IMG/VR virus record: IMGVR_UViG_3300043313_000323
Coordinates: 1 to 61,468 of that record
Source: a virus
Length of the DNA stretch: 61,468 nucleotides
Reading direction: 5' to 3' (one strand)
The notes below the pieces were generated by a model. That model was not told where the DNA came from and did not search any database. It worked only from the letters and a program-made list of their open reading frames with translations. A program made the translations under genes and the position numbers. Each line of letters starts with the position of its first letter. The first letter of the stretch is position 1. Shown piece by piece: positions 2,273-48,153 of this stretch.

Positions 2273-2288
2273 TTCTTTCCCCATGGGC

Positions 2289-3333: not shown

Positions 3334-3358
3334 GCCGTCACCAGAAAGGGAAACGACG

Positions 3359-20969: not shown

Positions 20970-22712
20970 TCATATCCTCGCGTCCGCTGTAACTTTTTGA
21001 AGATCAATGAAGTTCAGCGCAGCCATGCTCTTGGAAAGCATAAGGGTTCTATTGTCTGCTCCCACGAAGAGACTGTCCCAGTTTGAAAAAGTTACCCCGT
21101 CTTGAATATCGCCAAGGGCTGTTACAGTTGGCGAACCGCGCATGGCCACAGGAAGAGTGTAGGTAAACCAAAATGCTGGAGCAGCGGGATTGATCAGGCG
21201 CGAAATCATTAAGTCGGCTCCCCCGCCCACGAAAAAATACCGCTGACACGCCAACAGCTCATGATCGAACGGCCGCAGGATCAACGACGACTGTGCAGCC
21301 GATGGAGCGTCGGGTCCGGGTAGAATAACGACACCACCAAGGCGGAAAACATCGGAGACCGCAGCGACAGCGTTCACTTGACCGGGGGCCGCAGCGTAGT
21401 TCGCGTTGTGCCAAGCATTTGCCGCTGGTGCGGTGGCGGTAGTACCAGAGGAGAGTGTCCACACTATCGAAAAACCAATGCCACTATCGACTTTCCACAC
21501 TCCGCTCGTCTCACCGGGAATGGTGATGACCTTGTACTCGTTCGCATCGGCCACGTTCTGGGTAAAACTCGCAATGTAAGAGCGAGAGCCATCGAAATTT
21601 CCCACTCTCAAACTATACAGACCGGGCCTGTGAGCGGCTGTCCAGAATCCAATCGTGATCGGCTGCGCATTCGGCGTACCCCACCCCAACCGCGCTATGC
21701 GATAGCCTTCGACTTTGTACTGGACATAACTTCCATCATTGGCACCCTGCGTCGGCCAAGGGGTTATGACCGTTACCGCGAGGTGTTTTTGAAAACCGGG
21801 AAAGCGCGCCCCGGATTGCGATGCAGCCAAAGTTGCCCCGCCACCGCCCCATGCCCAGACATCGCAGACATTATACCCGACGCTGGCCGCACCCATCTGC
21901 GCCACCTCGAAACTGCCATTAACTTGAATCCCATTGTAAGCAGCCGCGTCGAGCTGAGCTGCATAGACGTTCTGTCGCGCTTGCGTGCGCTGGCTTTCCG
22001 TCAGCGCCTGCACCGCGTCATAACGAACGCCATTACTGTCGCCCAGCGCGGCGATGTTAGACCGCGCCCGCCACTGCTGCTCGGCATTCAGCGTTTGCGT
22101 TGTATCGAATGCCACCGCGCCAATTGCGGCAGCACTGACGCTCGGAGGCGCGATCACCCACTGCGTGGAATTTCCGTCGTTGTAGCGAATATAAATCAGA
22201 CCAGTGCTTGACTGAAACCAGAGACTGTTGTCGCCAGCACCAACCGGCGGCGTGTCGGACACCAAGACAGCGACGCCACCACCGGGTCCGGGAATGCCCT
22301 GCGGTCCCATCGGTCCCTGTGGACCTTCCGGTCCAATCAGCGATATGCCTGCAGGCCATGCGCCAGCATGCTTCGGACCAAACCAGAAATGCGTCGTGGT
22401 ATTGATGTAGAAGTCGCCATCGACACCTGTGCCGACAGTCGGATCGCCCTCACCATAAAGAACGCCTTTGCCAGCTTGGCCGGGATCACCCTGAACACCT
22501 TGCGGACCCTGCGGCCCCGGATAGCCGGGTGGACCGGCGGGACCGGGCGGGCCGGGATCGCCTACAGGGCCTTTTTCACCGGCAGGGCCTACGGGACCAA
22601 CAGGTCCGGGCGGACCAATCGGAGAGATGGCAAGCATCGTATTGCTGGGCGTGAAAGTCGCCAGCGTGATGCGCGGCAATCCGTTGCCAAGTTCAAAGAG
22701 AGGGGCTGGCAT
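20970..22712 (-). CDS. collagen-like tail fibre, 580 aa (longest of the array)
   Basis: About 20 G-x-y triplets ([19 protein letters not shown] and on) form a collagen-like stalk within residues 30-80, with a second short stretch near 130. The trunk carries the same motifs as the next three genes ([45 protein letters not shown]) and then a unique tip. As the first fibre gene it is probably the main fibre. Confidence 0.82.
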
Positions 22713-27604: not shown

Positions 27605-28111
27605 TCAGGCCCTCTCGATTTCGTCCCACAGGACTTGGAAGCGCAGATCGACCGGCCGCTTCGGCCCGCGATACAGGGCCACCATGGCATCGACCCGATT
27701 AAGACCGTTGCGGTAGGCGGCGACATCGAAGCTGGTAATCATCTTGTGAGAAACGAAAGGCTGGAGCGCCTCACTGATGTACTTCTCGACGCGGGTGATG
27801 GTCGCCCCTTCCGGGTCTTCCGCCCCAACGATCTTGGCCCGTCTCAGGAGCCACAGCTTGGTCCCTATCGGCCAACCACCAAACAGCTCCTCCGCATCCA
27901 TGTCGCCCCACCAGCCCGCACGGTCGGTCGAGTCCGGGTCCGGTAGAACATCATTCGCATCAACGAGCCTGTCGGTGCCTAGCGCAACGATCACCGCTGT
28001 GGTCAGCGCCTGCGTATCGTCCAGCGTGCCGTCATCGAGCAACCACCAGTCGATGGGAATCGAGTAGCGCGGGAATGCTTCGGGGCTCTGGATAAGGCGG
28101 ATGTCAGGCAT
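27605..28111 (-). CDS. baseplate protein, Mu gp46-like, 168 aa
   Basis: The start at ATG 28111 (MPDIRLIQ) is chosen because it overlaps the gp45-like stop; the longer frame to 28228 runs inside that gene. A WWLLDDGTLDDTQALTTAVIVALGTD opening and GWWGD with LFGGWPIGTKLWLLRRAK are classical gp46 features. A gp25-like wedge role is known for this family. Confidence 0.88.
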   Translation of the reverse strand: MPDIRLIQSPEAFPRYSIPIDWWLLDDGTLDDTQALTTAVIVALGTDRLVDANDVLPDPDSTDRAGWWGDMDAEELFGGWPIGTKLWLLRRAKIVGAEDPEGATITRVEKYISEALQPFVSHKMITSFDVAAYRNGLNRVDAMVALYRGPKRPVDLRFQVLWDEIERA

Positions 28112-29168
28112 GGGATATCCTGCTTTCAAGCTCAGCGACACGACGTTCCAGTGCCACGATTCGCGCCTCCATTGTTTCAAATAATTTCGGCGCAGTCGCG
28201 TCGTAGCCGGTCGATACTTCTTCTTCATGCACCACCGGCAGGATGCCCGGAGGCAACGTCACGCCGGGTGGCAATGGCGGAAACGGCAGCGGAGGCAGCG
28301 GCGGGATCGCGACCCCAAGTGCTGCGAAGATCGAATCGACGTAGCCCTTTGTCGTCAACTCCGTTGGCTTGGTTGGTGGCGCGGCTTCCACCTGTTTCAT
28401 GAATTTGCCCAGACCGTTCGTAAACTTGTCACCGAAAATCTGAACCAGCGGGCCGCCTGATCGCGCCGTTCCGCCTGACCCCGGCTGAAAACTGTGCAAC
28501 GGGGTTTTGTGTTCAATCGTTTGATCGTGGACAAGCTCGGTCTTGCCCTTGGTCATCTCAACGTGCTGCTTACTCTCCTTCTCGTAGCGCTGCTTCTGGC
28601 CTTTCTTCTTCATGCCGCCGCCAGACGAGGAGGATGACGAAGATGAGCTGTCGCCTGCAGCCAAGGATTCAACGCTGCCATCCAAGGTTTCGGCGCTCTT
28701 GCCGCTGCCACCACCGCCGCCTCCACCCTCATCCTGCGGCGGCTCAGCCAATTGAAACTTCATCTTCTTGTCGGTGCGCCCGGTGATGAAGACGCCGTCC
28801 TTGTTGAAGTGCATCTGGTGCTGCAGATGATCGAACATCGCCACGTCACCGGGCTTCAGCTCCTTCAGGCGATAGCGCCTGTCGTCCATCACAGACGCGA
28901 TTGGAAAGCTGCGATTGCCACCCAAGAAATTGATGTAGGCCTCGGCGCATTCGGTGATCTTGCCATCCTTGCCTTTGGTCGCCTTGTTCACGACGGACGT
29001 GAAGCCATAGTTTTGCGGGCTCTCGATCTTCTCGCGGGCCTCGCCGCCCATGAAGGAGCCCTTCATCTCCTGCATACCGGTCTTGTCATCAATCTCATCG
29101 ACCAGCGAACGAGCGCCGCTGGCGGTGTAGCCGACGTAACCCTGTTGCAATGGATTCTGGCGATGCAT
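28104..29168 (-). CDS. baseplate spike protein, Mu gp45-like with long C-terminal extension, 354 aa
   Basis: GGAGATATCA precedes the ATG at 29168. The N-terminal part (GARSLVDEIDDKTGMQEMKGS, then NYGFTSVV, AYINFLGGNRSFPIAS and GDVAMFDHLQHQMHF) matches gp45 tail-spike proteins. Beyond about residue 140 there is a Gly/Ser linker and a beta-repeat region (QTIEHKTPLHSFQPGSGG). A Pro-rich stretch PPLPPLPFPPLPPG and a final coiled coil follow. The extension makes it longer than the roughly 200 aa of Mu gp45. Confidence 0.85.
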   Translation of the reverse strand: MHRQNPLQQGYVGYTASGARSLVDEIDDKTGMQEMKGSFMGGEAREKIESPQNYGFTSVVNKATKGKDGKITECAEAYINFLGGNRSFPIASVMDDRRYRLKELKPGDVAMFDHLQHQMHFNKDGVFITGRTDKKMKFQLAEPPQDEGGGGGGGSGKSAETLDGSVESLAAGDSSSSSSSSSGGGMKKKGQKQRYEKESKQHVEMTKGKTELVHDQTIEHKTPLHSFQPGSGGTARSGGPLVQIFGDKFTNGLGKFMKQVEAAPPTKPTELTTKGYVDSIFAALGVAIPPLPPLPFPPLPPGVTLPPGILPVVHEEEVSTGYDATAPKLFETMEARIVALERRVAELESRISHA

Positions 29169-29180: not shown

Positions 29181-30302
29181 CTATGCGTTGACGGTTGGAT
29201 CAGAAGTTGATTTGGGCGCGGGCGTGGGCGTCTGCTTGCCGGACTCGTCCAGCTTGTATTCCTGCGCGCCCAACATCGACGGCAGCACGCATTCGAGCTG
29301 TGTCAGTGTCCCGCCTTTAGTGTCCTGCGTGAACGTCGCGGTCTTGATCAGCATGGTCAGGGCGAGCGGGCACATTGGCGAATTAAGATAGACGCCGTCG
29401 CCACACTTCCACAGGTTTTTCCCGTCGCGTAGCCACCCCTGCACGGTGACGTTGGCGGTGACCTTCGTGCCACTGCGCTGCAGAGCTTCGTACTGGGCGC
29501 GCATCTGCGCCTCTTGCGGGGTCATGGACGGATGCTCGGCTGGAATCTCCATCTTCCGCGTATGCAACCCCGGCAGATCGCCCATGGCAACAGCAACAAT
29601 CTCTGCGGTGTCGAGCGGCGACTTGTCGTCCTTGACCTTGGCCTGCGAGTTCAGCTTGTACTCGTTGAACAGAAACTCGCTGGAAAAGACGCACTGCATC
29701 TTCAGGATGTTCTGGCCCTCGATCAGGTTCTGCGTGATGGGTGGCGAGTTGTCACCAATGAGCAGCAAGTTGCCGAGATGATCGGAGCCAAGTTTTGCGT
29801 TGCGCATGCGCGCGATCCTGTCGAGGAAGTCGAACACCGGCTCACCGGGCTGCGACTGCATCACCTCGAATTTCATACTGCTTGGCGTCCCAACAATCTT
29901 CGGACTGCCACCGACTGACGACACGACCTTGGTGAAGATCGAGCTGATGGGCTGATTGTCGAAATTGTTCTTGCCGTTTTCGCTGGGCACGCTGGACGTT
30001 GCCGCCGCCCACTGCACACCGACGCCGGATAACTGCACACCGTGTTCGGTCGAGGCGTAGGCGACCTGTCGCTGCGTGATAATTCCAGTCACGCCCAACT
30101 GTCCGCCAAGTAGGATCGTGCAGGAGTCGCCGGGTTTGAACTGTAGCTTAGCCCAGTCGAACGGCAGCTTGCCGCCTTCGGTCGCGGTAAAGCGAAACGT
30201 CGGCCAGCCATCCATCCATCGATGCTGGACATAGACCGTTTCCCAATCTTGGTAGTCCACTCCAGCGACGCGAAGGAGGGCCACTTCATTCGGATTTGGC
30301 AT
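29181..30302 (-). CDS. baseplate hub protein, Mu P / gpD-like, 373 aa
   Basis: The start at ATG 30302 (MPNPNEVALLRVAG) is chosen because it lies directly after the upstream stop (TGAAATG); an upstream extension would sit inside the previous gene. The features are QHRWMDGWPTFRFTAT, FKPGDSCTILLGGQLGVTG, SVLE-free FEVMQSQPGEPVFDFLDRIARM and LTMLIKTATFTQD. These are typical of the Mu gpP hub family. Confidence 0.87.
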   Translation of the reverse strand: MPNPNEVALLRVAGVDYQDWETVYVQHRWMDGWPTFRFTATEGGKLPFDWAKLQFKPGDSCTILLGGQLGVTGIITQRQVAYASTEHGVQLSGVGVQWAAATSSVPSENGKNNFDNQPISSIFTKVVSSVGGSPKIVGTPSSMKFEVMQSQPGEPVFDFLDRIARMRNAKLGSDHLGNLLLIGDNSPPITQNLIEGQNILKMQCVFSSEFLFNEYKLNSQAKVKDDKSPLDTAEIVAVAMGDLPGLHTRKMEIPAEHPSMTPQEAQMRAQYEALQRSGTKVTANVTVQGWLRDGKNLWKCGDGVYLNSPMCPLALTMLIKTATFTQDTKGGTLTQLECVLPSMLGAQEYKLDESGKQTPTPAPKSTSDPTVNA

Positions 30303-30303
30303 T

Positions 30304-30978
30304 TCAGAATGCCAGCGCTCGTCCCTCGCGAGGCGCGAAGGCTGGGTGAATGATCTTGTTTTCTTCGCGTAGCTCGTCCGCCCGCGCTGCCGTATCATAA
30401 AGACGTTGCGACAGGATCAGCGTCGGACGCGGTGCGGAAAATCGGAAGTTGAGCATCTGCGGGAGCGGGCGCGCAGTCTCGTACAGATGGAACGTCACTG
30501 CAGCATGCAGCGACACCAGCGTCCGGTAGACCGACAGAACCATCTCATCGGCAGCAAGCTCTTCCGCTTGATCAAATGCCGGATGCAGTTTTTTGCCAAC
30601 CCTTTCCACATCCTCACGACTGGTGAAGTCGATCTCGACCAGAACCATAGCCATTTGCTGCAGGCTGAAACAGGCGCATGCGTTTCGGATCAGCACACCA
30701 ATCAGGGTTGTGAGCTTCTCGGCAAGAAGTGCCGCGCGCACCCTGTCAAACTCATCCAGCGTCGCGCCACTCAGACGCGCCTGATTGAAGCAGGCCGTCA
30801 GCTTGTCGGCTATGACATTGGTGGCGATGTAAATATCTGCATAAGCCAGTATGTCGCCGCAGGCCCTGCGCAGATCGGAGCCAGCTCGACCGACTTGATC
30901 GTTCGATGTCGCCAGCAACATCTCGGTGGCGAGGCGGGCAATCCTAGTGGCTTCCTTAACTTCAATGGCCGGGATCAT
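30304..30978 (-). CDS. C-terminal half of a Mu N-like DNA circularisation / tail protein, 224 aa
   Basis: The end of the protein (ARPLPQMLNFRFSAPRPTLI-SQRLYDTAARADELREENKIIHPAF) matches the C-terminal part of Mu gpN-type proteins. In Mu this is one continuous protein with the DNA_circ_N domain; here it is a separate gene overlapping the N-terminal-half gene by four bases. The split looks functional because both parts are intact and coupled. Confidence 0.78.
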   Translation of the reverse strand: MIPAIEVKEATRIARLATEMLLATSNDQVGRAGSDLRRACGDILAYADIYIATNVIADKLTACFNQARLSGATLDEFDRVRAALLAEKLTTLIGVLIRNACACFSLQQMAMVLVEIDFTSREDVERVGKKLHPAFDQAEELAADEMVLSVYRTLVSLHAAVTFHLYETARPLPQMLNFRFSAPRPTLILSQRLYDTAARADELREENKIIHPAFAPREGRALAF

Positions 30979-31637
30979 GCTGTCACATCCGGTTTTGAGC
31001 GCGGTGCGTTGGTTCTGATCACTTCCTTGACTTCAGCCACACTCGCATCATTGAGCTGTTGGACAGCGTAGTAGACGCCAGCCTTGCTGCTTCGCTCGCC
31101 ATTCGCCGGGGCCTTGCCGTATTCGGTGAACGACATATCGAACACGCAATATCCGCCAACCCTGTTCTCCTCCGTCACCCGGTAGCGCGTGCAGGAGACT
31201 TCCAATTGGCCAAGCAGCGGCAACTGCAGGATTGCCGGACCCTCGGTCTCCAGCGCCTCGATCAGTTTGTCGCGCGCCGGGATGTAGGTCTTTTTCTTCA
31301 GGTCGTTGCCATCGCCATCCACATCTCTCGGATAGACAATGATGTAGCCGCGCACCGTAAACTCGCGCTGGCGGCGTCCCATGTCTTCGGCGTATGGCAC
31401 GTCACGCTTCGGAAATTCGTGCGGCACAATGCGACGGCCAGATTCGCGCACCGCAGATTCGACATGGAAGCGGCAATTGCGAAACATCGCAGGCATCCAC
31501 TTGCTGCGCCACGCCTCGCCTGACTTCAGCTCCATGATCTTGGTAGCTTTAGCTGGCGAGAGGCCCTTGCCATTGGCGACGGGCTGAGAGTTGTTAACCG
31601 GCGGTCTTGGTGGTGCGATAACCGGGCCTCTGGCCAT
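30975..31637 (-). CDS. N-terminal half of a Mu N-like protein (DNA_circ_N), 220 aa
   Basis: AGGGAAAGCAA precedes the ATG at 31637. The motif SGEAWRSKWMPAMFRNCRFHVE, then GRRIVPHEFPKRDVPYAEDMGRR and FTVRGYIIVYP, is diagnostic of the DNA circularisation N-terminal domain. This domain is now viewed as a baseplate/tail component. The C-terminal partner is the next gene. Confidence 0.85.
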   Translation of the reverse strand: MARGPVIAPPRPPVNNSQPVANGKGLSPAKATKIMELKSGEAWRSKWMPAMFRNCRFHVESAVRESGRRIVPHEFPKRDVPYAEDMGRRQREFTVRGYIIVYPRDVDGDGNDLKKKTYIPARDKLIEALETEGPAILQLPLLGQLEVSCTRYRVTEENRVGGYCVFDMSFTEYGKAPANGERSSKAGVYYAVQQLNDASVAEVKEVIRTNAPRSKPDVTA

Positions 31638-31647: not shown

Positions 31648-34389
31648 TTAGATGCTGTAAGATTCTTCTGTTGTCTTGGCGACGCTCGGACCTTGCTGCG
31701 TCAATTGACCAGCCTCCTGTCTCTGCATATCGGTGTTCTTGAACAGCTTTGTTCTGGCTTGTTCGGCACCCTGTTGAGCTGATGGTCCTACATCAACCTT
31801 GACGCTGCCGTCCGCCCTGACTGTCTGATTGGTCGTAAGCGAGCCACGGTCGAGCGCGCCGCGATCCGGCTGGCTCGCCAGCGAAGCGCCGAGACCGATG
31901 CCGCTGCCTGCGCCCTGCGCGGAGAGTAGGCTTGATGGATAGCCGCCGACTTTGGCTGGCGCGACGACTGGACCCGTCTCCGTCCCGGCGACCTTGCTTT
32001 GCTCGGCGGCCTTGCTCTCCTGATAACGCTTCATGCCTTGCGGCGTGAGCTGAGTGTGAACGTGAGGACCGGTCGCATGGTGAGATGGATGCCTCACCTC
32101 ATCGATAATCTTGTAGTCGCGGCCTTCCTTCAGACCGCGCCCACCCATCGTCTCGCGTATTCTGGCCATCGCCGTATCGGACTGCTCAGGCGTGCGGGCG
32201 CGCGTATCGAAGGCGAGCCCGCGCGAGTGCGCGGAGTGAGGATTCGCGCGCGACAGCGGATGGTTGGGGCTGCGGTAGGTGGACGTGATCTCCGCGCCCG
32301 TAGCCTTCACCTCGCCCGTCAGCGCGGCTAGCCCAGCCGCCCTTCCCTCTGCGCTATCATCAACGCCAACGGGTGCGCCACCGCCGCCACCACCGCCGCC
32401 GCTGCCTTTGGTCATCGTCTGTGGGACGGTCCCCAGCGACGCGACGTTGCCGCCAGTCATGATCGCGCTGGCTTGCGCGGGAGACATCCCGCCGCCAGCA
32501 CCACCGCCCGCACCAGAGCCAGCACCAGCGCCGCCGCCGCCACCAGCACCAGCGCCAGCACCGCTAGCCGGTGCCGATTTCGAACCGCCGGTATCAGTGC
32601 CCGTATCTGCGCTGTCGCTATTCGCGCGCTGTTGATCGGCGCTGGTGCCGCCGCTCGCGGTGCCGCTGGTGCCGCCGCCTGAATTGCCTCCCTTCGTACC
32701 ACCCTGCTCTGGCGTGTAGGATGCATTCTGGACGCCACTGCCGGGACCGCTGCCGCCCGTGGCACCTGACCTTCCTGACGACCCTGACGATCCCGGCGCT
32801 CCCTTCCCGCCATCCATATTGCGGTCGAAGAATGCGTTCAACTTCTCAAGCTGCGCCGTCAGCTTCTCGGCTTGCGTCGTATTCCTGCCGGTCTCGTCAA
32901 TCAGCTCATCCTGCGTGAACGAGATGTTTGTCCGCAACGAGCTGTAGTCGTTGGTGCCGCCCTGATAGCTCTGAGGCTGCGGCTCCATGCCACGATTGTA
33001 GTATCGCTGTTGCGTCGCCATCGGTGGCCGCTCAAGGCGACCAGATCGCATAGGCCCGCTCATGTTCGGCGGCGGTGCCGGTGACCCGCTTGGCGGCAGG
33101 GCGTTTTCGTTCCTTCGCGTCGCCTCTTCTTCCGGGGTCTCCTTGACCCCCTCATCCTTCTTCGTCTCGGTCATCCCACTGGCGGTACCAGTGATCGTAT
33201 CGTAGAGCCCCTTGATGTCCTTGAAGAGCTGAGCCACACCGCCCAGCTCCGTCCTGATCATCGTCAGCGTTTCCGGGATCGATTCAATAAATCCCGGCAG
33301 CTTGTCGATCAGCCCCTTTAACTCAACCTTCAGCTCGCTCAACAGCGCAGGCAGCTCATCCTGCAGCTTCCCAAGCGCATCGAGAACGATGGGCAATCCC
33401 ATCGCCAAAATCTCGGTCGAAAATTCGTCCCAGATCGCCGTGATCTCGCCCCAGACCAAACTGATCTGTTTGCTTAATACCCCGATGCGCTCCAGCTCCT
33501 TCGCCGTCTTCGGGTCAGGGTCTTTCAGGATCGGCATTTCCATGTCTTCGGCGCTCAAACCAAATTCAGCGCCCCACTGGTTCATCATCGCTCTGGCGAC
33601 ATTTTTTGCGACGCCAGCCTCGATCATCTGACGCTCAAGCGCCTTGCCGTAAGTGATGACCGCGTTGCGCGCCTTGTTCGGGTCCATCGCCGCGAGCTTG
33701 TTGACCCAGTTCTGATCGACGCCCATTCCAATCAGCCGCGCGCGTAGCGACGAATTGTTTTTCGATAGATTGAACTGAGCGTCGCCAACCGCCTGAAAAC
33801 TTCTGGTGATCGACTCGGCTGACTGGCCAAACCGCTTGGCTTCGTCCTGAGCGTACTTCAGCTCCGCGAAGGTCATGCCCATCTGTCGGGCGGTCTTGCC
33901 AAGCGTATCCATCTCTCGCGCGAAGCGAAAAACCGAAACACCATAAGCAACAACGGCAGCGCCAAGGCCGACAACAGCAATCGCGACGCCGCCGATTCCC
34001 ATCAGCGCCACCTTCGCGGTCGTGCCGACGCTCGCGAATGCACCACCAAGACCGTGCAGGGCCACGCCCATGTCGCGCATGTTGCCAGCGATCTGCGGCA
34101 GGCTCTGCAATCCCTGCGTGGCCACGCCCATGCGCGCGAAGCCGTCCTTGAGCGCATTGGCATTTACCGCCGCCGCGCGCATCTCCGTATTGAAATTGCG
34201 AAGACCCGGAACCGCTTTATTGGTCGCGCCGCCCAGATTGGTGACGCCAGCCGAAGCCGCGTTGACGGCGGTCGTTAGTGCGGTCGCTGACCCGGTCAGC
34301 AATCCTATTTCACCACGAATCTTCGCCAGCCCCGGAGTGGCGTTATCCTGAAGATTAACTGTGAGACGTAGTTCTTCGAACTCTGCCAT
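31648..34389 (-). CDS. tape measure protein 2 with M15-type peptidase domain, 913 aa
   Basis: The first 290 residues align almost without gaps to the upstream tape measure gene (MAEFEELRLTVNL, LQSLPQIA near 95, GLGAAVVAYGVSVF-FAREM near 142-160). Hydrophobic segments lie at about 115-155. A long Gly/Ser/Ala linker leads to a C-terminal domain (about 685-790) with SAHSRGLAFD (His721, Asp728) and GPHVH (His778). This is the zinc-ligand pattern of M15 peptidases that cut peptidoglycan cross-bridges. It likely sets tail length and helps cell-wall penetration. It starts directly after the upstream stop (TAAATG). Confidence 0.88.
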   Translation of the reverse strand: MAEFEELRLTVNLQDNATPGLAKIRGEIGLLTGSATALTTAVNAASAGVTNLGGATNKAVPGLRNFNTEMRAAAVNANALKDGFARMGVATQGLQSLPQIAGNMRDMGVALHGLGGAFASVGTTAKVALMGIGGVAIAVVGLGAAVVAYGVSVFRFAREMDTLGKTARQMGMTFAELKYAQDEAKRFGQSAESITRSFQAVGDAQFNLSKNNSSLRARLIGMGVDQNWVNKLAAMDPNKARNAVITYGKALERQMIEAGVAKNVARAMMNQWGAEFGLSAEDMEMPILKDPDPKTAKELERIGVLSKQISLVWGEITAIWDEFSTEILAMGLPIVLDALGKLQDELPALLSELKVELKGLIDKLPGFIESIPETLTMIRTELGGVAQLFKDIKGLYDTITGTASGMTETKKDEGVKETPEEEATRRNENALPPSGSPAPPPNMSGPMRSGRLERPPMATQQRYYNRGMEPQPQSYQGGTNDYSSLRTNISFTQDELIDETGRNTTQAEKLTAQLEKLNAFFDRNMDGGKGAPGSSGSSGRSGATGGSGPGSGVQNASYTPEQGGTKGGNSGGGTSGTASGGTSADQQRANSDSADTGTDTGGSKSAPASGAGAGAGGGGGAGAGSGAGGGAGGGMSPAQASAIMTGGNVASLGTVPQTMTKGSGGGGGGGGAPVGVDDSAEGRAAGLAALTGEVKATGAEITSTYRSPNHPLSRANPHSAHSRGLAFDTRARTPEQSDTAMARIRETMGGRGLKEGRDYKIIDEVRHPSHHATGPHVHTQLTPQGMKRYQESKAAEQSKVAGTETGPVVAPAKVGGYPSSLLSAQGAGSGIGLGASLASQPDRGALDRGSLTTNQTVRADGSVKVDVGPSAQQGAEQARTKLFKNTDMQRQEAGQLTQQGPSVAKTTEESYSI

Positions 34390-37300
34390 TTAATTTGTCG
34401 CCAGTAGCTCTTTGGCCGTTTCCTTCGACATCGTTGTCTCTCTCGTTGACGAAGTGCTTTTGAATGCGCCGCTGCCGGTGACTTCGACCTTGGTACCAGA
34501 TGGCGCTCTCACAACCGACGTGAGCTTGCCGTCCGTCTGAACATTGGCGTCCTTGTCCGCCGTTAAGGCTTGGCGCGAGACCTCGGCGCGGGCCACTGTG
34601 GGCCTGTCCTTGGCGGCGTCGGCCGCAGCAATTTCTCGCTGCCGTCGCTGTTGCCATTCGCGGGAGCCCGCATAATCCAGATTGTTAAAGCGCTCGCCGT
34701 TGATGTTAACGCCAATGCCGCCCCTATTATAATTCGGGTCTCTGCTACTGCCCTGATCGGTATGACTCTCGATGGTATTGCTGCCGCCAATCGCACGGTC
34801 GATCTGCGAATTTACATAGGCGCGGTACTTCGGGTCTTTATCCAAACTGGCCAAATGAGAATTGATCTTACCGGTGCGGATCGGACCATAAAAACTCTCG
34901 CCTTGACTTCGGCCTTCGATCATCTGCTTCAACGTCTTCGGCGGCAGGCCGCGCCTTCTGCGGCTCTCGTTGACCATCTCCGTTCTGTTGAACAGGCTCT
35001 CGACCACGGCCGGACCAGCACCAAGGTTCTCGGCGCTGAGAATCCCGCCAACCAGCCTTCTGGTCGCCGGGTCTTCCAGCTCCTTCTTGAACCCCTCCCG
35101 CTTCGCCGCCAGATACTTCGATCCGCTGCCAGCCTCTGCCGGTGAGACGCCATCGACCTTGGCGCTGTCGGTAGCACCATCCACTTTGGCGCTATCGTTG
35201 CCGCCGCCGCGCTTCGCGCGCACCTCCGCAACCGCCGAGTCGCCCGCGTAGCGAATGTCCATGTTCTTGATGGGTCGCCGCTTCACGCCGTACTGGTCGG
35301 CAAACATCGCGGTGTTCGTCTTGGCATCGTAGCTACCGGGAACGATGTTCATGACGTGGCCGCCAGTCTGGCCCTTGCCAAGCGGCGCACCGACATTGCC
35401 GCCGTAGCGGCGCTCGTTATAGCTGGCGATCATACTGCCAAATGGGCGGTTCGGATTATTGATGTCCGCCTTGTCTTGCTTCTCGCCCCAGTCATTCCAG
35501 TTGGAAGCAATCGCGCCGCCCTTTGGCGGCTTGAACCCGGCCGACATCACATACTTGCCAGCGACCATGCCGCAGGCTGGGCCGTTCATGCGGTACCCCT
35601 TCGCCGCGAACAGTTTCTGCAACCCGGCGGTGTCTCCCGCGCGCCCCAAGGTCTCGACCTGTTTCATTGTTTCAGGATCGATGCCCTTGCCATCCTGATC
35701 ATTGAGCGCCGCCGGTCCACCGGCACCGCCGTTGCTGTAGGTGCCACTGGCTCCACCGTAGCTGCCACCGCCACCTTGACCGCCGCCGGTATATCCGCCG
35801 CCAGCCGCAGCGCCCGCTGATCCGCCAAAGGTTGCGTTCTGGAAACCGCCGCCGCCACCACCACCGCCGCCAAAGCGTTCGAAGTAGTCGTTCAGCTTTT
35901 CGATCTGCCTCGTAAGTTTTGAGACCTCGTCAGTACCATCGCTCAATTCGTCCTTTAGTTCGCCCTGCGTGAACGATGCGCGCTGGAGCAAAGGGTTACT
36001 ATTATTGGAGCCACCGTCGTAGCTCATATTCCTGCGCAACTGATGCGGCATCACCCCCGGACCCGTCGCGCGCGGACCATACTGTCCCGGCGGCGGCGTG
36101 AGAGGAGGCGGCACGGGCGGTCGATCACCGGGCCTTATCGGCTCCAGACCATGATTGCGCAGAGCCTCATCGGTGGGAGTGCCGCCGCCCCACCTCTCCG
36201 CGTCCCACATCGACCATTCGCCACGCCGTTTCTTCTCGGCCCATGCCTCGTCGTTTTCCTTGCTCATGAACTTGTCCCAGCCCATGAACTTCTGCAGCGA
36301 CGGGTGCGCGCGAGATCGCACCATATCAAGCGGATGCACCATATATTTGAGGGTGGTGATCACACCCTGAAACAGGGAGACGACCCCCTTCAGCGCGACG
36401 CCGACTTTACGAATGGCGGTCGGTATTTTTCCAACAAGCCCCGGCAAAAACGAGACCGCATATTCGATCCAGATTCTCAACTCTTTCAGGATCGCGGGCA
36501 TCTTGCCCTTCAGCTTGATCATGCTGTCGCGCAATTTCGGCAGCGCGGACGCAAGCAGCTCGGTCTTGAACTTGGTCCACTCATGCGTCATCTGTCGCCA
36601 GACGCTCATGATGGCATCGCTGTACATAGAGATGTCTTCTAGCTGCGCCTTCTTCTTCGGAGACATCGGCGGCAGCTCTGGCATATTCAATTGCTCAGCG
36701 CCGAGTTTGAACTCCTTGAGAAACTGAGCAGCTAGTCTGGCGGCGTTGGCTGGCATGACGCCAGACGCGAGAGCCTGCGCCTCCAATTGCTTGGCGTACC
36801 GGACAATGGCATTGCGCGCTTGGTTCGGCTCCAGCTTTGAAAGCTGCGCGATCCATCCAGCATCAACGCCCTGACCAAGCAACGTCGCGCGCAGTTGAGA
36901 ATTGTTTTTGTACAGGTCGAGCTGCGCGTCGTTGATTCCCTGATAGCTGCGGATGACCATGTCGGCCGAATAGCCAAACTGCTTCGCCTGATCCGTCGCA
37001 TACTTCAGTTGAGCAAAGCCCAAGCCCATCTGCTTCGCCGTCTTGCTCATGTCGCTCATCTCGCGAGCGAACTTGAAGACGGAAACACCGTAGGCAACGA
37101 CGGCTGCGCCAAGGCCAACAACGCCAAGAACGACGGCACCGATACCAACCACCGCAATGGAAGCGGCGGCAGACACCCCGACAAATGCCGCGCTCATGCC
37201 GCGCACACCAAGGGCCATGTCGCGCACGTTGCTGGCTATCTGCGGCAAGGACTGGAGCCCCTGCATGGACACGCCCATCTGCAGGATGCCAGAGACCACT

Positions 37301-37536
37301 GAGCGCGCACCCTGCTCAGCTTCGCGCATGCGTTGATTGAGCGTGCGAACTTGCGGAGCTGCGGCGGTCACCGCATTGCCGAGATTGGTGATGCCGTTAA
37401 AGCCTGCATTCAGGCTCGCCGTCATCGAGTCAGTGGCAACGGTTAGATTGCCAAGCTCACCTCGCAGGCGCTGAAGCCCCGCAGACGCATTGTCTACGAG
37501 GTTGACTGTAAGGCGTAGCTCTTCAAATTCAGCCAT
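34390..37536 (-). CDS. tape measure protein 1 with two hydrolase-like domains, 1048 aa
   Basis: This is the first of two tandem tape-measure genes. The N-terminal 160 residues are helical and hydrophobic, and the middle is a mixed helical tape. From about 650 to 760 lies NGPACGMVAGKYV (Cys655) and TGGHVMNIVPGSYD (His727), a Cys-His arrangement like NlpC/CHAP peptidases. At 815-950, RRLVGGILSAENLGAGPAVV (Glu836) and LFNRTEM resemble SleB-type cell wall hydrolases. The ATG at 37536 lies inside the end of the frameshifted chaperone. Confidence 0.88.
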   Translation of the reverse strand: MAEFEELRLTVNLVDNASAGLQRLRGELGNLTVATDSMTASLNAGFNGITNLGNAVTAAAPQVRTLNQRMREAEQGARSVVSGILQMGVSMQGLQSLPQIASNVRDMALGVRGMSAAFVGVSAAASIAVVGIGAVVLGVVGLGAAVVAYGVSVFKFAREMSDMSKTAKQMGLGFAQLKYATDQAKQFGYSADMVIRSYQGINDAQLDLYKNNSQLRATLLGQGVDAGWIAQLSKLEPNQARNAIVRYAKQLEAQALASGVMPANAARLAAQFLKEFKLGAEQLNMPELPPMSPKKKAQLEDISMYSDAIMSVWRQMTHEWTKFKTELLASALPKLRDSMIKLKGKMPAILKELRIWIEYAVSFLPGLVGKIPTAIRKVGVALKGVVSLFQGVITTLKYMVHPLDMVRSRAHPSLQKFMGWDKFMSKENDEAWAEKKRRGEWSMWDAERWGGGTPTDEALRNHGLEPIRPGDRPPVPPPLTPPPGQYGPRATGPGVMPHQLRRNMSYDGGSNNSNPLLQRASFTQGELKDELSDGTDEVSKLTRQIEKLNDYFERFGGGGGGGGGFQNATFGGSAGAAAGGGYTGGGQGGGGSYGGASGTYSNGGAGGPAALNDQDGKGIDPETMKQVETLGRAGDTAGLQKLFAAKGYRMNGPACGMVAGKYVMSAGFKPPKGGAIASNWNDWGEKQDKADINNPNRPFGSMIASYNERRYGGNVGAPLGKGQTGGHVMNIVPGSYDAKTNTAMFADQYGVKRRPIKNMDIRYAGDSAVAEVRAKRGGGNDSAKVDGATDSAKVDGVSPAEAGSGSKYLAAKREGFKKELEDPATRRLVGGILSAENLGAGPAVVESLFNRTEMVNESRRRRGLPPKTLKQMIEGRSQGESFYGPIRTGKINSHLASLDKDPKYRAYVNSQIDRAIGGSNTIESHTDQGSSRDPNYNRGGIGVNINGERFNNLDYAGSREWQQRRQREIAAADAAKDRPTVARAEVSRQALTADKDANVQTDGKLTSVVRAPSGTKVEVTGSGAFKSTSSTRETTMSKETAKELLATN

Positions 37537-38115: not shown

Positions 38116-38517
38116 TTATCTGGCGGCCTGCCGGACTGGCGAGACCGGATTGTCGATGGCCATTTCCTCGCACCAGAGACCTTCCCATCGCACACGGACC
38201 TGACCGTCGCGGGCGTTGGCTTCCAGTGCAGCTTTGCACGTCGCGCCAATCAGGCTGTACTGCCAGCCATTGGCGAGCTGCGCCACGACGTTTACGTCGG
38301 TAGCTCCGTCAAGGTCTTCCAACGCGAGACCGCGCGTGGTCGAGATGTCGCCCTCGATGAAGGGTACGCGGGGCAGCTCCTGATAACCGTGAACGCCGTC
38401 CTGTCCGGCGATCATGGTCCGCTCCACCGGAGACGGGCTTACCGTGAAGTTGCCTCGCAGTGCCATCATCTGCGAGCCCACATAGAGATAGGCGATACCA
38501 GCGAATCTTTGGGCCAT
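38116..38517 (-). CDS. tail tube protein, Mu gpM-like, 133 aa
   Basis: The sequence GIAYLYVGSQMMALRGNFTVSPSPVERTMIAGQDGVHGYQE is nearly diagnostic of Mu-type tube proteins, as is the following GDISTTRGL. The length is close to that of Mu gpM. It follows the sheath gene and is likely the polymerising inner tube. Confidence 0.9.
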   Translation of the reverse strand: MAQRFAGIAYLYVGSQMMALRGNFTVSPSPVERTMIAGQDGVHGYQELPRVPFIEGDISTTRGLALEDLDGATDVNVVAQLANGWQYSLIGATCKAALEANARDGQVRVRWEGLWCEEMAIDNPVSPVRQAAR

Positions 38518-38569: not shown

Positions 38570-40135
38570 TTAGCCGTTGCCGCCAGCCGCGAGGCGAACG
38601 CCCGCATCCCCGATGTCGCGATCCACGCCACGGTCGTACTGGAGCCTGAACTGCGCCAGCACAGCAAAGACGCGGAGCTGGTTGATCAAGTCCGGCGGGT
38701 ACAGGACGTTGAGGCGGTTCGGGTTGTTCGGGTCGCGCTCGACCAACAGGTGGTTCTTGAACGAGCGGGTGTCCTCGACCAGACCGTTGTATTCGTCCTG
38801 ACGATACTCCGCGACCAGCTCGGCCTTGATGATGCCGGGGGTGACGATGGCCTGACCGGGACCGAAGCGGGTGCCGTCGTTGGCCAGCTTGTGGCGTGGG
38901 AATTTCGACGTGATCGCCTGACGCTGATTGCGCAGCAAGCGAGCGAGCGTCGCCAGCGTCGTCACCAGCTCGTATGCGTCATCGCTCTGCGCGTACAAGT
39001 TAAGCTGATAGGTCGTGGTTTCCCGGAGGATCATCACGCCTTCGCCGCCGACTTCCTGCGTCGCGATCCCGTAGCCTGCGAGCGTGTTCAGCTCGCCGCG
39101 ATTGAAGCGCTCATGCAGCGGTGCCGACAGAACGCCCGTGAGCGCCAGCGTCTGCAGCGGGCGGGCCGGATCGTTGGTGAGGCCGCGCGCGGCCTTTGCG
39201 GTGTAGGCGGCGGTCCACTCATAGACCGGCGTCGGGCTCCCCAGCTCGACACCCATGATCGATGTCGTGCCAGAGTTCTGGGTTTCACCAAACATGATCA
39301 TGTTGGCGTAGTCGGCGCGGTGGGCTGAGAAGACGTGACCGTAAAGCTGACGCATCCAGCCCCAGCGGCCGGTATCGGTGAAGCCGTACTCCAGATTCCA
39401 CGCCATCAGCGAGGTGGAGTCGGTGAACGGCATCGCCACATATTCGAAGTTGCGCTCGCCAAGATTGGCGATGGCATCATCCATATCGGGCACACCAGCG
39501 CCGCCGCTCAGCATGCCAAGGGTGGTGTATTCAATGGTGATGCCAGCCGGAAGCTCTTCGCTGCCGATGCGGCCATAGTAGCTGTCGCGCAGATCGATAT
39601 CGTTGCCGCTGGTGCCCTTCCAGTTACACGTCAGCGTCACATCGGTGGGACCGCCAACCGATGTCACCGGCAGATTGAAGTTTTCGTTGATCGCCGCCGA
39701 GATCGCGACATTGATCTCGTTGAGCGTGTCGGTCGCGCCGATGTTCACGCCGACATGCTGGCCGCCGATGTAGAGGTGGATGGTGCCAGCCTCATGACCG
39801 CCCGCAGCAACCGTCACAGTGATCGAGCCGGTAGCCGCAGTGCCGCCCACCGGTTCAGCGAGCGGTAGGCCCCAGACTTCGTGCGCGAAGTTGTTGGCGA
39901 AGAACGCTGCAAACATATTGGCGAGGTGCGAGCCCTGACCGAATTGCTTGTCGGCCTGAGCTTGCGTGCCAATTGGGATCGCAACGTCAGGAATACCAAT
40001 GCCCTCATCGGTCATGATGCCGACGAGCAGCGCAGGCTGGCGGATAGTCCAGAGACCGGCCTTTGAAGGATCGACCTCGACCCAGTAAAGCGGCAGTCTC
40101 CAGTTGGTCGGAATGTTGGCGAAACTTACAGGCAT
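38570..40135 (-). CDS. contractile tail sheath protein, Mu gpL-like, 521 aa
   Basis: TAGGAGATCGAACC precedes the ATG at 40135. The opening FANIPTNWRLPLYWVEVDPSKAG is the Mu gpL pattern, and the central insertion plus C-terminal domain (ELVAEYRQDEYNGLVEDTRSFKNHLLVERD) are conserved in sheaths. It shows that the virion is a myovirus. The length is slightly above Mu gpL. Confidence 0.93.
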   Translation of the reverse strand: MPVSFANIPTNWRLPLYWVEVDPSKAGLWTIRQPALLVGIMTDEGIGIPDVAIPIGTQAQADKQFGQGSHLANMFAAFFANNFAHEVWGLPLAEPVGGTAATGSITVTVAAGGHEAGTIHLYIGGQHVGVNIGATDTLNEINVAISAAINENFNLPVTSVGGPTDVTLTCNWKGTSGNDIDLRDSYYGRIGSEELPAGITIEYTTLGMLSGGAGVPDMDDAIANLGERNFEYVAMPFTDSTSLMAWNLEYGFTDTGRWGWMRQLYGHVFSAHRADYANMIMFGETQNSGTTSIMGVELGSPTPVYEWTAAYTAKAARGLTNDPARPLQTLALTGVLSAPLHERFNRGELNTLAGYGIATQEVGGEGVMILRETTTYQLNLYAQSDDAYELVTTLATLARLLRNQRQAITSKFPRHKLANDGTRFGPGQAIVTPGIIKAELVAEYRQDEYNGLVEDTRSFKNHLLVERDPNNPNRLNVLYPPDLINQLRVFAVLAQFRLQYDRGVDRDIGDAGVRLAAGGNG

Positions 40136-42742: not shown

Positions 42743-44137
42743 TCAGCGGGCCTCGATCTGGAATTGTTCGAACAGACTGCGCAATTGCAGCGGCGGCCCG
42801 GACCTTCCGTCCGACATGATGGGAATTGCGACGTACTCCGCGCGGTCGATCTCCCACTTCTGGATTACCGCGCCGGGGGTACCTCTTTCGCCCTGCTCGC
42901 CGCGCGTACCGCGCTCGCCCTTGGGTCCGGCCTTGCCTTGGCTCGCGATCAATTGCCAGCCGGGACCGGGACACACTCCGGGGTCGTCCTTCTTGGCGCA
43001 GAAGGTGCTGCCACCCAGCGCGACGAACTCCAGCTCACGGTAGGTCTCGTTCTCGTTCCACAGACCGCGCACGATGATCGAACGCCCGTCCGCGCCCGCC
43101 CGCGCGAGGCAGACCCAGTCCTTGGAGCCGCCGTCAGGACGGTCGGCCGTGTCCTTCAGCGCCTGATAGGTCGAGCCCGCGCGCGTGACGACCGCGCCCG
43201 CATAATGAACGCCGGACTCCCAGACCTTGACGCACGGCAGCAAGCCCATCGGGCCTCGCTCGCCGCGCTCACCGGGTTGTCCGGGCTCCCCGCGCGCACC
43301 GGGTATACCCGTCTCGCCACGCAAGCCCATTTTGCCAGCTTCTCCCGACTGGCCACGGTCGCCCTTCTCGCCTCTTTCGCCGCGCTCGCCCTTGATGCTC
43401 AGGCCCGGAATACCGGGTTCTCCCCGGTCACCCTTTTCCCCGCGCTCGCCGGGTGCGCCATGCAGCCCCGGCTGGCCGGGATCGCCTTTGACGGACATTC
43501 CGGGCAGACCCTGCTCGCCTTTGGCACCGCGCTCACCGGGCTTCCCTGTCTCACCGGGACGCCCTTGGTCGCCGCGCTCGCCACGGTCGCCCTTGATCGA
43601 CAGCCCCGGCTCGCCCCGGTCGCCTGCAGGCCCGCGTTCGCCGGGGAGCCCGCGCTCGCCGGGGTCACCCTTGACGCTCAGGCCGGGGATACCCTGCTCC
43701 CCTCGTTCGCCTTGGGGGCCTTCTTTGCCTTGGAGACCGATTTCCCCTTGCAGCCCGCGCTCACCAGCCGGTCCCGGTGCCCCGTCGCTACCATCGTGCC
43801 CCGGTTCGCCGCGCTCACCAGCGGGGCCGGGAGGCCCTTCCTGACCCCGTTCGCCAGCCGGTCCCATAGCACCGTCAACGCCGGGGTCACCGCTCTTGAT
43901 CGTCGCCAGCTTCTCGCCCACCAGCCGGTCAACCTTGGCCTGCAGCCCCGTCACGACGAGGTTGATCTCGGCCACGGTCGCGCGCATCTGGGCTTCCATC
44001 AGCTCACGCTGCTGGTCCCACTGCTTGCGATGCTGGGAGATGACAACTCCCATCGCCACGCGAAGAGCTTCAAGCGTCGCTTCTGTCATGTGCATCGGCG
44101 TAGGAGAGGAGCGTTCTGACTTCGCTGGCAACGACAT
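42743..44137 (-). CDS. collagen-like protein with carbohydrate-binding-like repeats, 464 aa
   Basis: The ATG at 44137 is chosen for AAGGA upstream, giving a 68-base overlap with the portal gene. A short coiled coil (about residues 20-80) is followed by some 70 G-x-y triplets rich in GERG and GDRG. The triplets are interrupted four times by G(L/M)S(V/I)KG. Two modules of the form VWESGVHYAGAVVTRAGSTYQAL and GLWNENETYRELEFVALGGSTFCAK follow; their Y-x-G-x-V-x-x-x-G-x-x-Y spacing resembles chitin/carbohydrate-binding modules. A capsid decoration or head fibre is likely given its location. Confidence 0.82.
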   Translation of the reverse strand: MSLPAKSERSSPTPMHMTEATLEALRVAMGVVISQHRKQWDQQRELMEAQMRATVAEINLVVTGLQAKVDRLVGEKLATIKSGDPGVDGAMGPAGERGQEGPPGPAGERGEPGHDGSDGAPGPAGERGLQGEIGLQGKEGPQGERGEQGIPGLSVKGDPGERGLPGERGPAGDRGEPGLSIKGDRGERGDQGRPGETGKPGERGAKGEQGLPGMSVKGDPGQPGLHGAPGERGEKGDRGEPGIPGLSIKGERGERGEKGDRGQSGEAGKMGLRGETGIPGARGEPGQPGERGERGPMGLLPCVKVWESGVHYAGAVVTRAGSTYQALKDTADRPDGGSKDWVCLARAGADGRSIIVRGLWNENETYRELEFVALGGSTFCAKKDDPGVCPGPGWQLIASQGKAGPKGERGTRGEQGERGTPGAVIQKWEIDRAEYVAIPIMSDGRSGPPLQLRSLFEQFQIEAR

Positions 44138-45554
44138 CGTCAAAGTCCTTTGCCGTGATTGATTTCTTCACTGGCGGCTCATCGTCAGGGGGTTCTTTTT
44201 CTTCCAGCTTCTCACCCGGAGGCTTCGCGCCAAACGGCGACGGCGGCCCACCGGCAGGAGGAGCGCCTGCAGCTCCCGGCATTCCCGGAGCGGCCGGGAT
44301 TGCGGCGGCGGCCGACAGCGGCACGACCTGTTGCTGGACGCGGGGCTCGTCGCCAAACTCGACCTCGGGCAGGCTCTCGATGGCGCGGGCTTCGTTGGGC
44401 GAGAAAATTCCGCCCTGCACCGCCTGCGCGAGGCCAGCGATCCTGACGCCAAACGCAGACCGCAACAAGGCGGCAGTATCAAACTCGACGTATTCGTCTG
44501 GCTGGCCATCGAGCTGGAAAAGTAATCCAAAGGCGTCTTCAATGTGATTGATAGCAAAGCCAAGACCAGACGCGATCCAGCTCTGCATCAATAGTTCGGT
44601 CGATGAAAAGGCGGTACCGCCGATGCCGAGAATTGCGAGCGGTACCCTGAAGGCGAGTGCGATCTTCTGGTCGGTGAGCTTCATCATCTCGGCCAGCTCG
44701 GCATCTTTTGACGGCGTGGACAAGATGTAAGGCTTGAGGCCCGCCGTCAGGATCGGGGTGCCACCCGCGTTCAGCCCTCTGCTTTGCTCGTCCCAGCGGT
44801 CGCGGATGAACTGGACCTGATCCTTGTCGAGGATGAGGTCGGTCGTCAGCACCGCGCTCGGGCGCGCTTGGTTCATGTAGAATTTGATCTGTTGCTGCGT
44901 CATCGCGTTGGACTGTGCGATGTCGTTGAGCGCCGCCGCGATAGGCGTGTCGCCCACCAGCGGATAGGGGTGCCGTCGCCGCGTCGCGTTCAGGCGCACA
45001 TGCAGCACGTCGCGCGCGGGCACGACCAGCGATTCCTTGACCTGTCGGTCGATGATGTCGTTGCCTGCCAGATTGTAGAACACGTCACCAGTCACCGCGA
45101 CTTGCGGATAGCTCTGGTTCGGGTCCATCAAGTGTAATTCTTTGATCTCGAATCGATCATTGCGCAGCGCCAGAGCGTAGGCATTGCCATCCGCGTAGAG
45201 TGAGCGGGTCAGGTTCAGCATGAAATCGCTGGGCGATTGATAGCTGTTCGGAGAGCGCAGGATGCGCGACACCGCCGAATTGGTGATGCGGTCGCGACCC
45301 TTCTTATCGTTCAGCCGCCAGTGATCACCGGGACACATCGCGATGGTCTGGCTGTACGCCGACAGGCATGCCTCGACCATTGCGGACGAAGCGCCGCTGC
45401 TCGGATTGATGTCCGACTGCCAGAAATTCCACGGCGAGTCTGCGGGGAGCCAGCCGCCTGTCACCGGAAGGTAATAGGGACCGGGACGCACCTCGCCCTC
45501 GCCAGCGGCTTTGCTGACGAAGGCGGAAGCGATCCTTTGCAGGAAGTTGGCCAT
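44070..45554 (-). CDS. portal protein, HK97-type, 494 aa
   Basis: Recognised by SPWNFWQSDINPSSGASSAMVEACLSAYSQTIA near the N-terminus, PNSYQSPSDFMLNLTRSLYADGNAYALA, and the C-terminal half DRWDEQSRGLNAGGTPILTAGLKP with AFRVPLAILG. The C-terminal tail is rich in Pro, Ala and Gly. It should form the dodecameric DNA gate at one capsid vertex. It lies downstream of the capsid gene, the reverse of the usual order. Confidence 0.93.
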   Translation of the reverse strand: MANFLQRIASAFVSKAAGEGEVRPGPYYLPVTGGWLPADSPWNFWQSDINPSSGASSAMVEACLSAYSQTIAMCPGDHWRLNDKKGRDRITNSAVSRILRSPNSYQSPSDFMLNLTRSLYADGNAYALALRNDRFEIKELHLMDPNQSYPQVAVTGDVFYNLAGNDIIDRQVKESLVVPARDVLHVRLNATRRRHPYPLVGDTPIAAALNDIAQSNAMTQQQIKFYMNQARPSAVLTTDLILDKDQVQFIRDRWDEQSRGLNAGGTPILTAGLKPYILSTPSKDAELAEMMKLTDQKIALAFRVPLAILGIGGTAFSSTELLMQSWIASGLGFAINHIEDAFGLLFQLDGQPDEYVEFDTAALLRSAFGVRIAGLAQAVQGGIFSPNEARAIESLPEVEFGDEPRVQQQVVPLSAAAAIPAAPGMPGAAGAPPAGGPPSPFGAKPPGEKLEEKEPPDDEPPVKKSITAKDFDDVVASEVRTLLSYADAHDRSDA

Positions 45555-46056: not shown

Positions 46057-48153
46057 TCACCACGTCACGCCCGCCACCCACGCGACGGTCCCGGCGCGGC
46101 GAACCGCCCAGTTCATCGGCAGGATGAGGCGCAAAGCGAGCGAGTCGGTCTGGAACATCGACATGGCAGGAGCCGCCACGACGCCGGGGGTGCCGGTGGT
46201 GCCGATGTGCTGCGGTGCGGTGTCTTCCATGTGCAGGGTCGCGGTGTCGCTGATTTCGAATCGCGGGGTGTCGCCCGTGATCGAAACAAAGTCGGCCGCG
46301 TCCATGCAGATCACGGTGCCAAGCGGCACGGTGCCGGATTTGATTACCGGGTAACCCATCAGCATGTTGTTCTCGATGCTCTGGGCGAACGGGAAGAGAC
46401 CGCCGGGGACCGGAGGCTGGATGAACCCGATGCCGAGAGCCTGTTGCGGGTTCATGATGAAGACCAGCGAGCGGACGTTGCCGTTGGTCGCCGTCAGGAT
46501 CGCGCCGGTCAGGCCCTTGAGATCGCCAACGAGGGCATTGAAGCCACCGCCTGCGGTCGGGGTCAGACCAACGCTGCCGTTGCGCAGACCGGCGGGACGA
46601 ATGATCGTTGCCGGGAGCGCATCGAGCAGGATGGTGTCGATAGCGATCTGCGTGTCTTCCTGAATCGCGTTGCGCAGAAGGCCTTCGATGGCGGGCACGG
46701 AATGCTCGTCCATCTCACGGGTCCAAGTGGTGATCACCGCCATCTTCTTCGGGGTGAGCAACTGGCTGGTAAACGCGGCCTGACGCACCGGGATCGGAGC
46801 GCCTTCACCGACGAACGATCCAGCAACGGTCGGGGTCGCGGAGCGCGTCGGCACGTTGATGCGGCCATTGCGCCCGAAGGTCAGCTTGAGCCCCATTGCC
46901 GACAGCGCCGGGTAGACCGACGACGGCAGCAAGGACGGCATCAGGTCGGCGTTGATCTGCTGAACGAGTTCAGCGGCCCAGCCGGTGACCGTGGTCATCG
47001 CCGGGGCAGTGCCAGCCTTCAACGAGAGATCGCCAATGAGCTTGGTGGCCTCGTCGTCGCCATAGATTTTCTGGCGGACCTGATCGACGGACCAGCCAGC
47101 GAACTCATGGTTCTTCGACAGAATCTTGATCGTACCGGCGCGGACCAAGAACTCGATGGGGTCGAGCTTCTTCGGCGTGAACGCGAACGGACGCGCGCCT
47201 TTGCCGATGATGGCGGGAGCGGATTTGCCGTTAGCGTTTTCGTCCTTCATGTCGGTCTTGATCTTGATCTCGCTGTCGAGGAACGACTGCCGCAGACTTT
47301 CCTGATCAGCAATCTTCTTGTTCAGCTCGTTGGTGGTCGCAACGTCTGCGTCGGTGACGTTCTCATCGTCAACGCCGTCGAGGTGTGCGGATAGTTGGTC
47401 GCGCAGGCGGTTGAGCCGCTGCTCAGTGTCAGCAATACGCTGGGTGAGGGGAGACGCCATGGTCTCGTTCCTTCTATGTGATGTCTTCGTATCGGCATGC
47501 CCGCCGTTTGAACCGCGACGCACAACGCTCTGGTCTTTTTTATTGACTTGCCCGTCAAAGACCGCAGCGAGGGTGTCTCGGGAAATGTTGAGCGACTTGG
47601 CAACCGCCAAGGCGTTCGGGTTCGCAGGGATCGAAACCAACGAGGTCTCGACTAGCTCAGCTCGTTTGAAGCGTAGGCCCGCCCCGCCTTTGGTCAGCGG
47701 TTCGGATTGCCTCGGCAGAAAACCAACCGAGACTGCGCGCAGGATGTCGGCATCGACCAGCCTGCGAATTTCGTCATGGCGCGGGGACGTACCCAATGGC
47801 GCGAGGCGCAGCTCGCCGCGCAGCTCGCCGCCTTGGATGTGAAGGTTGTGCCACTTGCCAATCGGGAAATTCGGATTGTGATTGAACAGCGCCACCGGGT
47901 TGCGCTTGAAGTTGACCAAGTCCCAGCCCGATGCCTCGATCACGTCGCCCATGCGGTCAGGCGTCGCATCCGACAGGATGAAGGACATGCCAGTGCCCTC
48001 CGAAATGTGCGTCTTGATGACGACCTTCTCGGCCTGACGCTCCTCCCACGCGAGCGCGCAGGCGTCCTCGTCCCCAGTCTCGGAAACGCAGGCGTCCATG
48101 AACTCGTCGCGGTCTTCGAAGTCGTCGGGCGAGGCTTTGCGCTTGATTCCCAT
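46057..48153 (-). CDS. prohead protease-major capsid protein fusion (HK97 fold), 698 aa
   Basis: A strong AGGAGG ribosome-binding site precedes the ATG at 48153. Residues 45-185 are an S78-type prohead protease with FNHNPNFPIGKW (His92) and ELVETSLVSIPANPNALA (Ser171). A coiled-coil region (about 235-290), as in capsid delta/scaffold domains, follows. An HK97-type capsid protein runs from about 330 on (GWAAELVQQINADLMPSLLPSS, then INVPTRSATPTVAGSFVGEG and WAVRRAGTVAWVAG). At residue 232 an internal ATG (47460) has AAGGAACGAGACC before it, so a separate 467-aa capsid form may also be made. Confidence 0.92.
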   Translation of the reverse strand: MGIKRKASPDDFEDRDEFMDACVSETGDEDACALAWEERQAEKVVIKTHISEGTGMSFILSDATPDRMGDVIEASGWDLVNFKRNPVALFNHNPNFPIGKWHNLHIQGGELRGELRLAPLGTSPRHDEIRRLVDADILRAVSVGFLPRQSEPLTKGGAGLRFKRAELVETSLVSIPANPNALAVAKSLNISRDTLAAVFDGQVNKKDQSVVRRGSNGGHADTKTSHRRNETMASPLTQRIADTEQRLNRLRDQLSAHLDGVDDENVTDADVATTNELNKKIADQESLRQSFLDSEIKIKTDMKDENANGKSAPAIIGKGARPFAFTPKKLDPIEFLVRAGTIKILSKNHEFAGWSVDQVRQKIYGDDEATKLIGDLSLKAGTAPAMTTVTGWAAELVQQINADLMPSLLPSSVYPALSAMGLKLTFGRNGRINVPTRSATPTVAGSFVGEGAPIPVRQAAFTSQLLTPKKMAVITTWTREMDEHSVPAIEGLLRNAIQEDTQIAIDTILLDALPATIIRPAGLRNGSVGLTPTAGGGFNALVGDLKGLTGAILTATNGNVRSLVFIMNPQQALGIGFIQPPVPGGLFPFAQSIENNMLMGYPVIKSGTVPLGTVICMDAADFVSITGDTPRFEISDTATLHMEDTAPQHIGTTGTPGVVAAPAMSMFQTDSLALRLILPMNWAVRRAGTVAWVAGVTW

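Follow-up and report, generated by a model that had tools for sequence, protein, structure and literature searches.

The closest described counterparts of the tape pair considered here are each encoded by a single gene. Residues 674-690 of the phage Mu tape protein gp42 are trimeric on hub and spike (PMC11915804), and its authors describe a trimeric tape. The tape of A-1(L) is a six-fold bundle with three hub-bound C-terminal helices, the missing three ends being attributed by the authors to proteolysis (PMC10966104); the same paper cites the Pam3 tape alongside it. Reports on the number of tape molecules per tail, and on the C-termini at the hub, differ between a trimer (Mu) and a six-fold bundle with only three visible ends (A-1(L)). 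Some tapes also contain wall hydrolases: gp95 of phiCbK is a tape measure with a CHAP domain (PMC3556154), and TM4, as cited in that paper, encodes a tape measure with a built-in wall hydrolase. Literature on two, second or duplicated tape-measure proteins yielded no published tandem tape-measure paralogues.

The window analysed here is the whole of a 61,468-base IMG/VR virus record (IMGVR_UViG_3300043313_000323). Its two tape genes occupy the same site, between chaperone and DNA-circularisation/hub genes, as gp42 of Mu and the SfV/ST64B-type tapes, which are encoded by one gene only and display no sequence match to the window tapes. Like phiCbK gp95 and TM4, the window carries hydrolases inside its tape proteins, but those phages have one tape and one hydrolase set. 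The features of the module are listed below; halves A and B refer to a bipartite C-terminal motif described further on.

38570..40135 (-) tail sheath, phrog_165
38116..38517 (-) tail tube protein, PF10618
37690..38112 (-) tail assembly chaperone, PF10109
34390..37536 (-) TMP1 (D1, "alpha" copy), tape-measure protein of 1048 aa, upstream gene of the pair
36367..37536 (-) TMP1 tape domain, residues 1-390, gapless against TMP2 1-390
37072..37173 (-) TMP1 hydrophobic segment, residues about 122-155, from sequence
35167..35619 (-) TMP1 Cys-His module, putatively papain-like/CHAP-type, with C655 and H727
34612..35121 (-) TMP1 second module with conserved E836, VVESLxNRTE, FYGP and TDQGS; conserved, without family match
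34393..34569 (-) TMP1 C-terminal end, half A kept (APSGTKVEVTGSGAF), half B absent, terminus SKETAKELLATN
31648..34389 (-) TMP2 (D2, "beta" copy), tape-measure protein of 913 aa, downstream gene of the pair
33220..34389 (-) TMP2 tape domain, residues 1-390
33925..34026 (-) TMP2 hydrophobic segment, residues about 122-155, from sequence
31990..32352 (-) TMP2 putative zinc-peptidase domain of M15/LAS type, ligands H721, D728 and H776/H778
31651..31854 (-) TMP2 C-terminal end, half A lost, diverged half B kept (LFKNTDMQRQEAGQLTQQGPSVAKT)
30975..31637 (-) tube-initiator/DNA-circularisation protein, N part, PF07157
30304..30978 (-) tube-initiator/DNA-circularisation family, C part as separate gene, phrog_184 278-403
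29181..30398 (-) baseplate hub, Mu gp44/gpP-like
28104..29168 (-) spike, Mu gp45-like

Genes of the minus strand followed the order sheath, tube, chaperone, TMP1, TMP2, tube-initiator/DNA-circularisation (two genes), hub, spike and wedge genes, with sheath, tube and gp43-47-like baseplate genes arranged as in Mu/SfV-type contractile tails. The closest sheaths in named phages, ~40-45 % identical, came from Mu- and SfV-like phages. Both tape genes sit between a frameshifting tail assembly chaperone and the baseplate hub genes, which is the position of tape-measure genes. In the chaperone gene, a T7 slippery run is located at 37720, and the -1 frame stays open for 61 aa, ending inside the start of TMP1, so that one chaperone set lies ahead of two tapes. 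The Mu gp43-like protein was encoded by two overlapping genes (30304-31637), both in the window and in relatives whose interval was read.

The adjacent genes of 1048 and 913 aa described in an earlier note on this DNA were both present, the ATG of TMP2 directly abutting the stop codon of TMP1. BLASTP aligned the two proteins from residue 1 to residues 554 and 523 (231 of 557 identities, 41 %, E = 2e-129), without gaps up to residue ~390. The colinearity that the note had reported was thus confirmed, together with the common hydrophobic segment, but its extent had been understated, since the alignment runs well beyond the ~290 residues claimed. Intact copies of both types were present in independent relatives, and both window genes are, at the sequence level, under purifying selection (dN/dS of 0.28 and 0.31 against the related locus L009; 0.19 and 0.32 for single-gene controls); chance, pseudogene formation and assembly error are therefore excluded for the pair. 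One long tape gene split by a frameshift was also considered and rejected, because an N-terminal motif and a complete architecture were present in each copy separately.

Named families recognised these proteins poorly. TMP2 matched the tail length tape measure phrog_8125 weakly (E = 2e-4), and TMP1 gave no match of its own to tape-measure profiles, its tape identity being derived from homology to TMP2. Relatives were matched by profiles TMP_2, TMP_3, TMP_N and PhageMin_Tail, again weakly and below Pfam cut-offs. A tblastn search of 50,697 phage records retrieved no match for either protein, hence no close relative in named phages. Foldseek returned nothing at E < 0.001 for either model against PDB or for the TMP2 model against a viral library, and profile searches of PDB sequences gave no match. 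TMP1 and TMP2 are identified as paralogous, full tape-measure proteins of a contractile tail module of the Mu/SfV type.

A scan with TMP2 alone found no relatives; these were retrieved with profile and tube-anchored scans. The collection was gathered by tape-domain and tube-protein scans, together with a search of 266 genomes of the genus of Bradyrhizobium sp. SRL28, whose locus L036 is a double-tape prophage. The fragment L002/L005 harbored this tandem pair too, at 51-67 % identity. The non-redundant set comprised 87 loci in which the chaperone-to-hub interval was complete; of these, 63 carried one tape gene, 24 carried two and none carried three. As the loci were best matches to chosen seeds and many were metagenomic fragments, 24/87 should not be read as an unbiased frequency. 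The search for relatives with one or both genes, which the earlier note had proposed, hence yielded both kinds, and its statement that phages normally have one tape measure held for most of the family, although two tapes proved to be a recurrent state. Within the first 57 loci, the chaperone-to-hub gap was clearly bimodal (2276-3800 vs 4393-6330 bases), and in 21 of the 24 pairs the D1 stop and D2 start were within about 14 bases of each other. Mapped on a core-gene tree from which tape genes were left out, the one- or two-tape state required ten changes, nine of them being forced by well-supported branches; by this reconstruction the two-tape state arose or switched repeatedly, with at least nine forced switches. 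L177 and L180 were not counted as two-copy loci, since their second ORF was not a tape. In both loci an ORF of ~400 aa with a hub-like ending follows the tape gene, which illustrates that ORF counts alone can mislead.

The view that two tape-measure paralogues bear different wall-hydrolase modules was upheld. TMP2 displayed the SxHxxGxAxD and HxH zinc-ligand motifs of an M15-type peptidase, with the H721, D728 and H778 predicted earlier and additionally H776; H721, D728 and H776/H778 were invariant in four proteins, TMP2 and three relatives. This domain was modelled with pLDDT above 90, and its top folds were mostly LAS members (VldE, Z 7.6; ChiX, 6.4; LysECD7, 6.3; hedgehog), while PF08291 was met in its relatives at E = 0.04 only. 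The Cys-His region expected in TMP1 was likewise found (C655, H727). Its aligned relatives matched PF05257 CHAP (1e-6) and TIGR02594 (8e-15), whereas TMP1 of the window was itself without match, and fold matches of the module stayed at Z < 5. The "SleB-like" label given to the second TMP1 module was not borne out, as neither Pfam nor NCBIfam gave a SleB/Hydrolase_2 match for 13 aligned members. Hydrolase modules were shuffled across the tape family, whose tail genes are mosaic, and were similar between the two copies in only one of 19 pairs examined. They tracked gene position near the window, where D1 went with D1 of L009, and D2 with D2 of L009 and of L027. Two tapes would allow several wall hydrolases per virion, and their delivery by one tail is plausible from these sequences.

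Tape domains and C-terminal ends recorded conflicting histories. In the tape-domain tree, copies grouped by phage lineage, and within the clade of the window a grouping of all first copies or of all second copies was rejected (p = 1e-7 and 3e-8). The tree of C-terminal ends of the same clade placed first copies in one group (100/98) and second copies in another (88/82), and within-phage pairing was rejected (p = 0.001, 0.007 and 5e-6). The excess of within-phage identity peaked at residues 280-400. Tape domains of one phage differed in length by 0 to 4 residues over 300-380 in many pairs, a matching which is partly expected from descent and was used only as support for co-assembly. The simplest account would be an old pair whose tape domains were kept alike inside each phage as the ends diverged according to role. 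Homogenised tape domains could, however, equally result from neutral gene conversion or from the use of one chaperone by both copies. A single ancient alpha/beta split, tested on end sequences (59 columns), was neither demonstrated nor rejected (p = 0.34 and 0.23), and one common origin of the alpha ends of all lineages was not rejected either (p = 0.34).

Single-gene tapes end in a bipartite motif, common to all tapes, which is composed of half A (APxGTKVxxxGxG) and, after LFK, half B (xxxRQTQMxPA). SfV-type tapes likewise have half A at their end, and half B coincides in position with the resolved C-terminal segment of Mu gp42 (674-690); the C-terminal end itself was poorly modelled, with pLDDT mostly under 50. 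The halves, which are short, were scored with profiles from single-gene tapes only and a 99 % shuffle threshold; L118 and L197 were too diverged for such scoring. Both halves were present in 51 of 63 single-gene tapes vs one of 50 double-locus copies (Fisher p = 3e-19, relatedness ignored). Within pairs, the halves shifted in opposite directions in 20 out of 25 cases, and in 17 out of 20 with a profile from nearer singles. Counted by independent lineage, complementarity was observed in 8 of 11 (sign test p = 0.11), which makes the lineage-level statistics suggestive, not conclusive. Individual pairs departed from the scheme: half B was degenerate in TMP2 of the window, where the difference was small with a broader profile, and L071 kept half B in both copies. 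Gene order was reversed in L026 and L084, whose first copy was beta. In a far-off double lineage (L184/L193/L203/L204) the same division was apparent by eye, and alpha ends displayed a conserved tail of their own, SKxTAxxLLATN, in three phages. One copy of L026 (3240-6122) carried both halves above both thresholds, and one copy of L071 (12860-15778) a clear half B with most of half A, a state that would be expected of an intermediate stage. Pair counts thus tend towards the complementary loss of ancestral elements seen in subfunctionalised paralogue pairs, with weaker support at the level of lineages.

Among the three readings offered by the earlier note, a mixed tape was best supported, through the within-phage co-evolution of tape domains and the divided end motif, from which we infer co-assembly; we give a probability of roughly 55 % to TMP1 and TMP2 being two subunits of one mixed tape. 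Both proteins would be loaded by one chaperone set into a shared tail tube, where their bundled tape domains would fix a single tail length and their C-termini would occupy two different baseplate positions. Since half B lies at the site of the hub- and spike-bound segment of Mu gp42, the beta end would plug the trimeric hub and the alpha end would take the other position. Two or more kinds of wall hydrolase would then be delivered on ejection. A bundle of 3 alpha and 3 beta would fit a six-fold tape with three hub-bound ends such as that of A-1(L), which is encoded by one gene, while the trimeric tape described for Mu would not fit. That the ruler is an obligate 3 alpha + 3 beta assembly, the mismatch between six-fold tape and three-fold hub having been solved repeatedly by duplication and complementary anchor loss, is put forward only tentatively; in single-tape phages, the same mismatch would be handled by one protein in two roles. 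Duplicated, subfunctionalised ring subunits form obligate hetero-oligomers elsewhere, for example in the fungal V-ATPase ring. The likeness resides in duplication followed by complementary loss, whereas the present case concerns a phage tail ruler and a putative hetero-oligomer. One structural protein would here have become an apparent two-part machine repeatedly within one phage group. As a natural two-gene tape labels both subunit classes genetically, stoichiometry and end roles become directly testable.

Other readings share part of this evidence. C-terminal modules that differ between copies in 18 of the 19 pairs examined, and that are reshuffled among family members, would also be expected if only one copy were the ruler and the other an accessory internal tail protein, with a tape-like N domain retained mainly for loading and with the second hydrolase as its cargo. 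This is unlikely, although the best placed of the alternatives, for neither tape domain is incomplete, their lengths match and they are under equal constraint, and in most pairs neither copy keeps both C-terminal halves of the single tapes. The full tape architecture of each copy, together with the differing modules, would suit an alternate use of two tapes, giving two tail populations that differ in hydrolases or lengths. The near-equal tape-domain lengths within most phages make tails of two lengths, another suggestion of the earlier note, improbable, and as the two copies share out the end motif instead of each keeping it whole, and the adjoining genes have one operon and one chaperone in common, we regard alternate use as the least probable reading.

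Somewhat less doubtful than alternate use, yet still improbable, is that no partnership exists and that tandem duplication occurred repeatedly, followed by neutral gene conversion of tape domains and by C-terminal swapping or breakpoint truncation. The mosaic tail genes of this family agree with it, and D1 is often the copy without half B at its 3' end, as a truncating breakpoint would give. Truncation does not, however, produce the internal loss of half A in the partner, and the reversed order in L026 and L084, the proper conserved tail of alpha ends and the purifying selection on both copies all speak against this reading as well.

Outside the tail module, the window displayed prohead protease (S78) and HK97-type capsid protein matches within one ORF of 698 aa (46057-48153). 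Collagen-repeat proteins (PF01391) were encoded at 42743-44143 and 20970-22712 (E = 7e-38 and 6e-9), one of them adjoining the portal gene.
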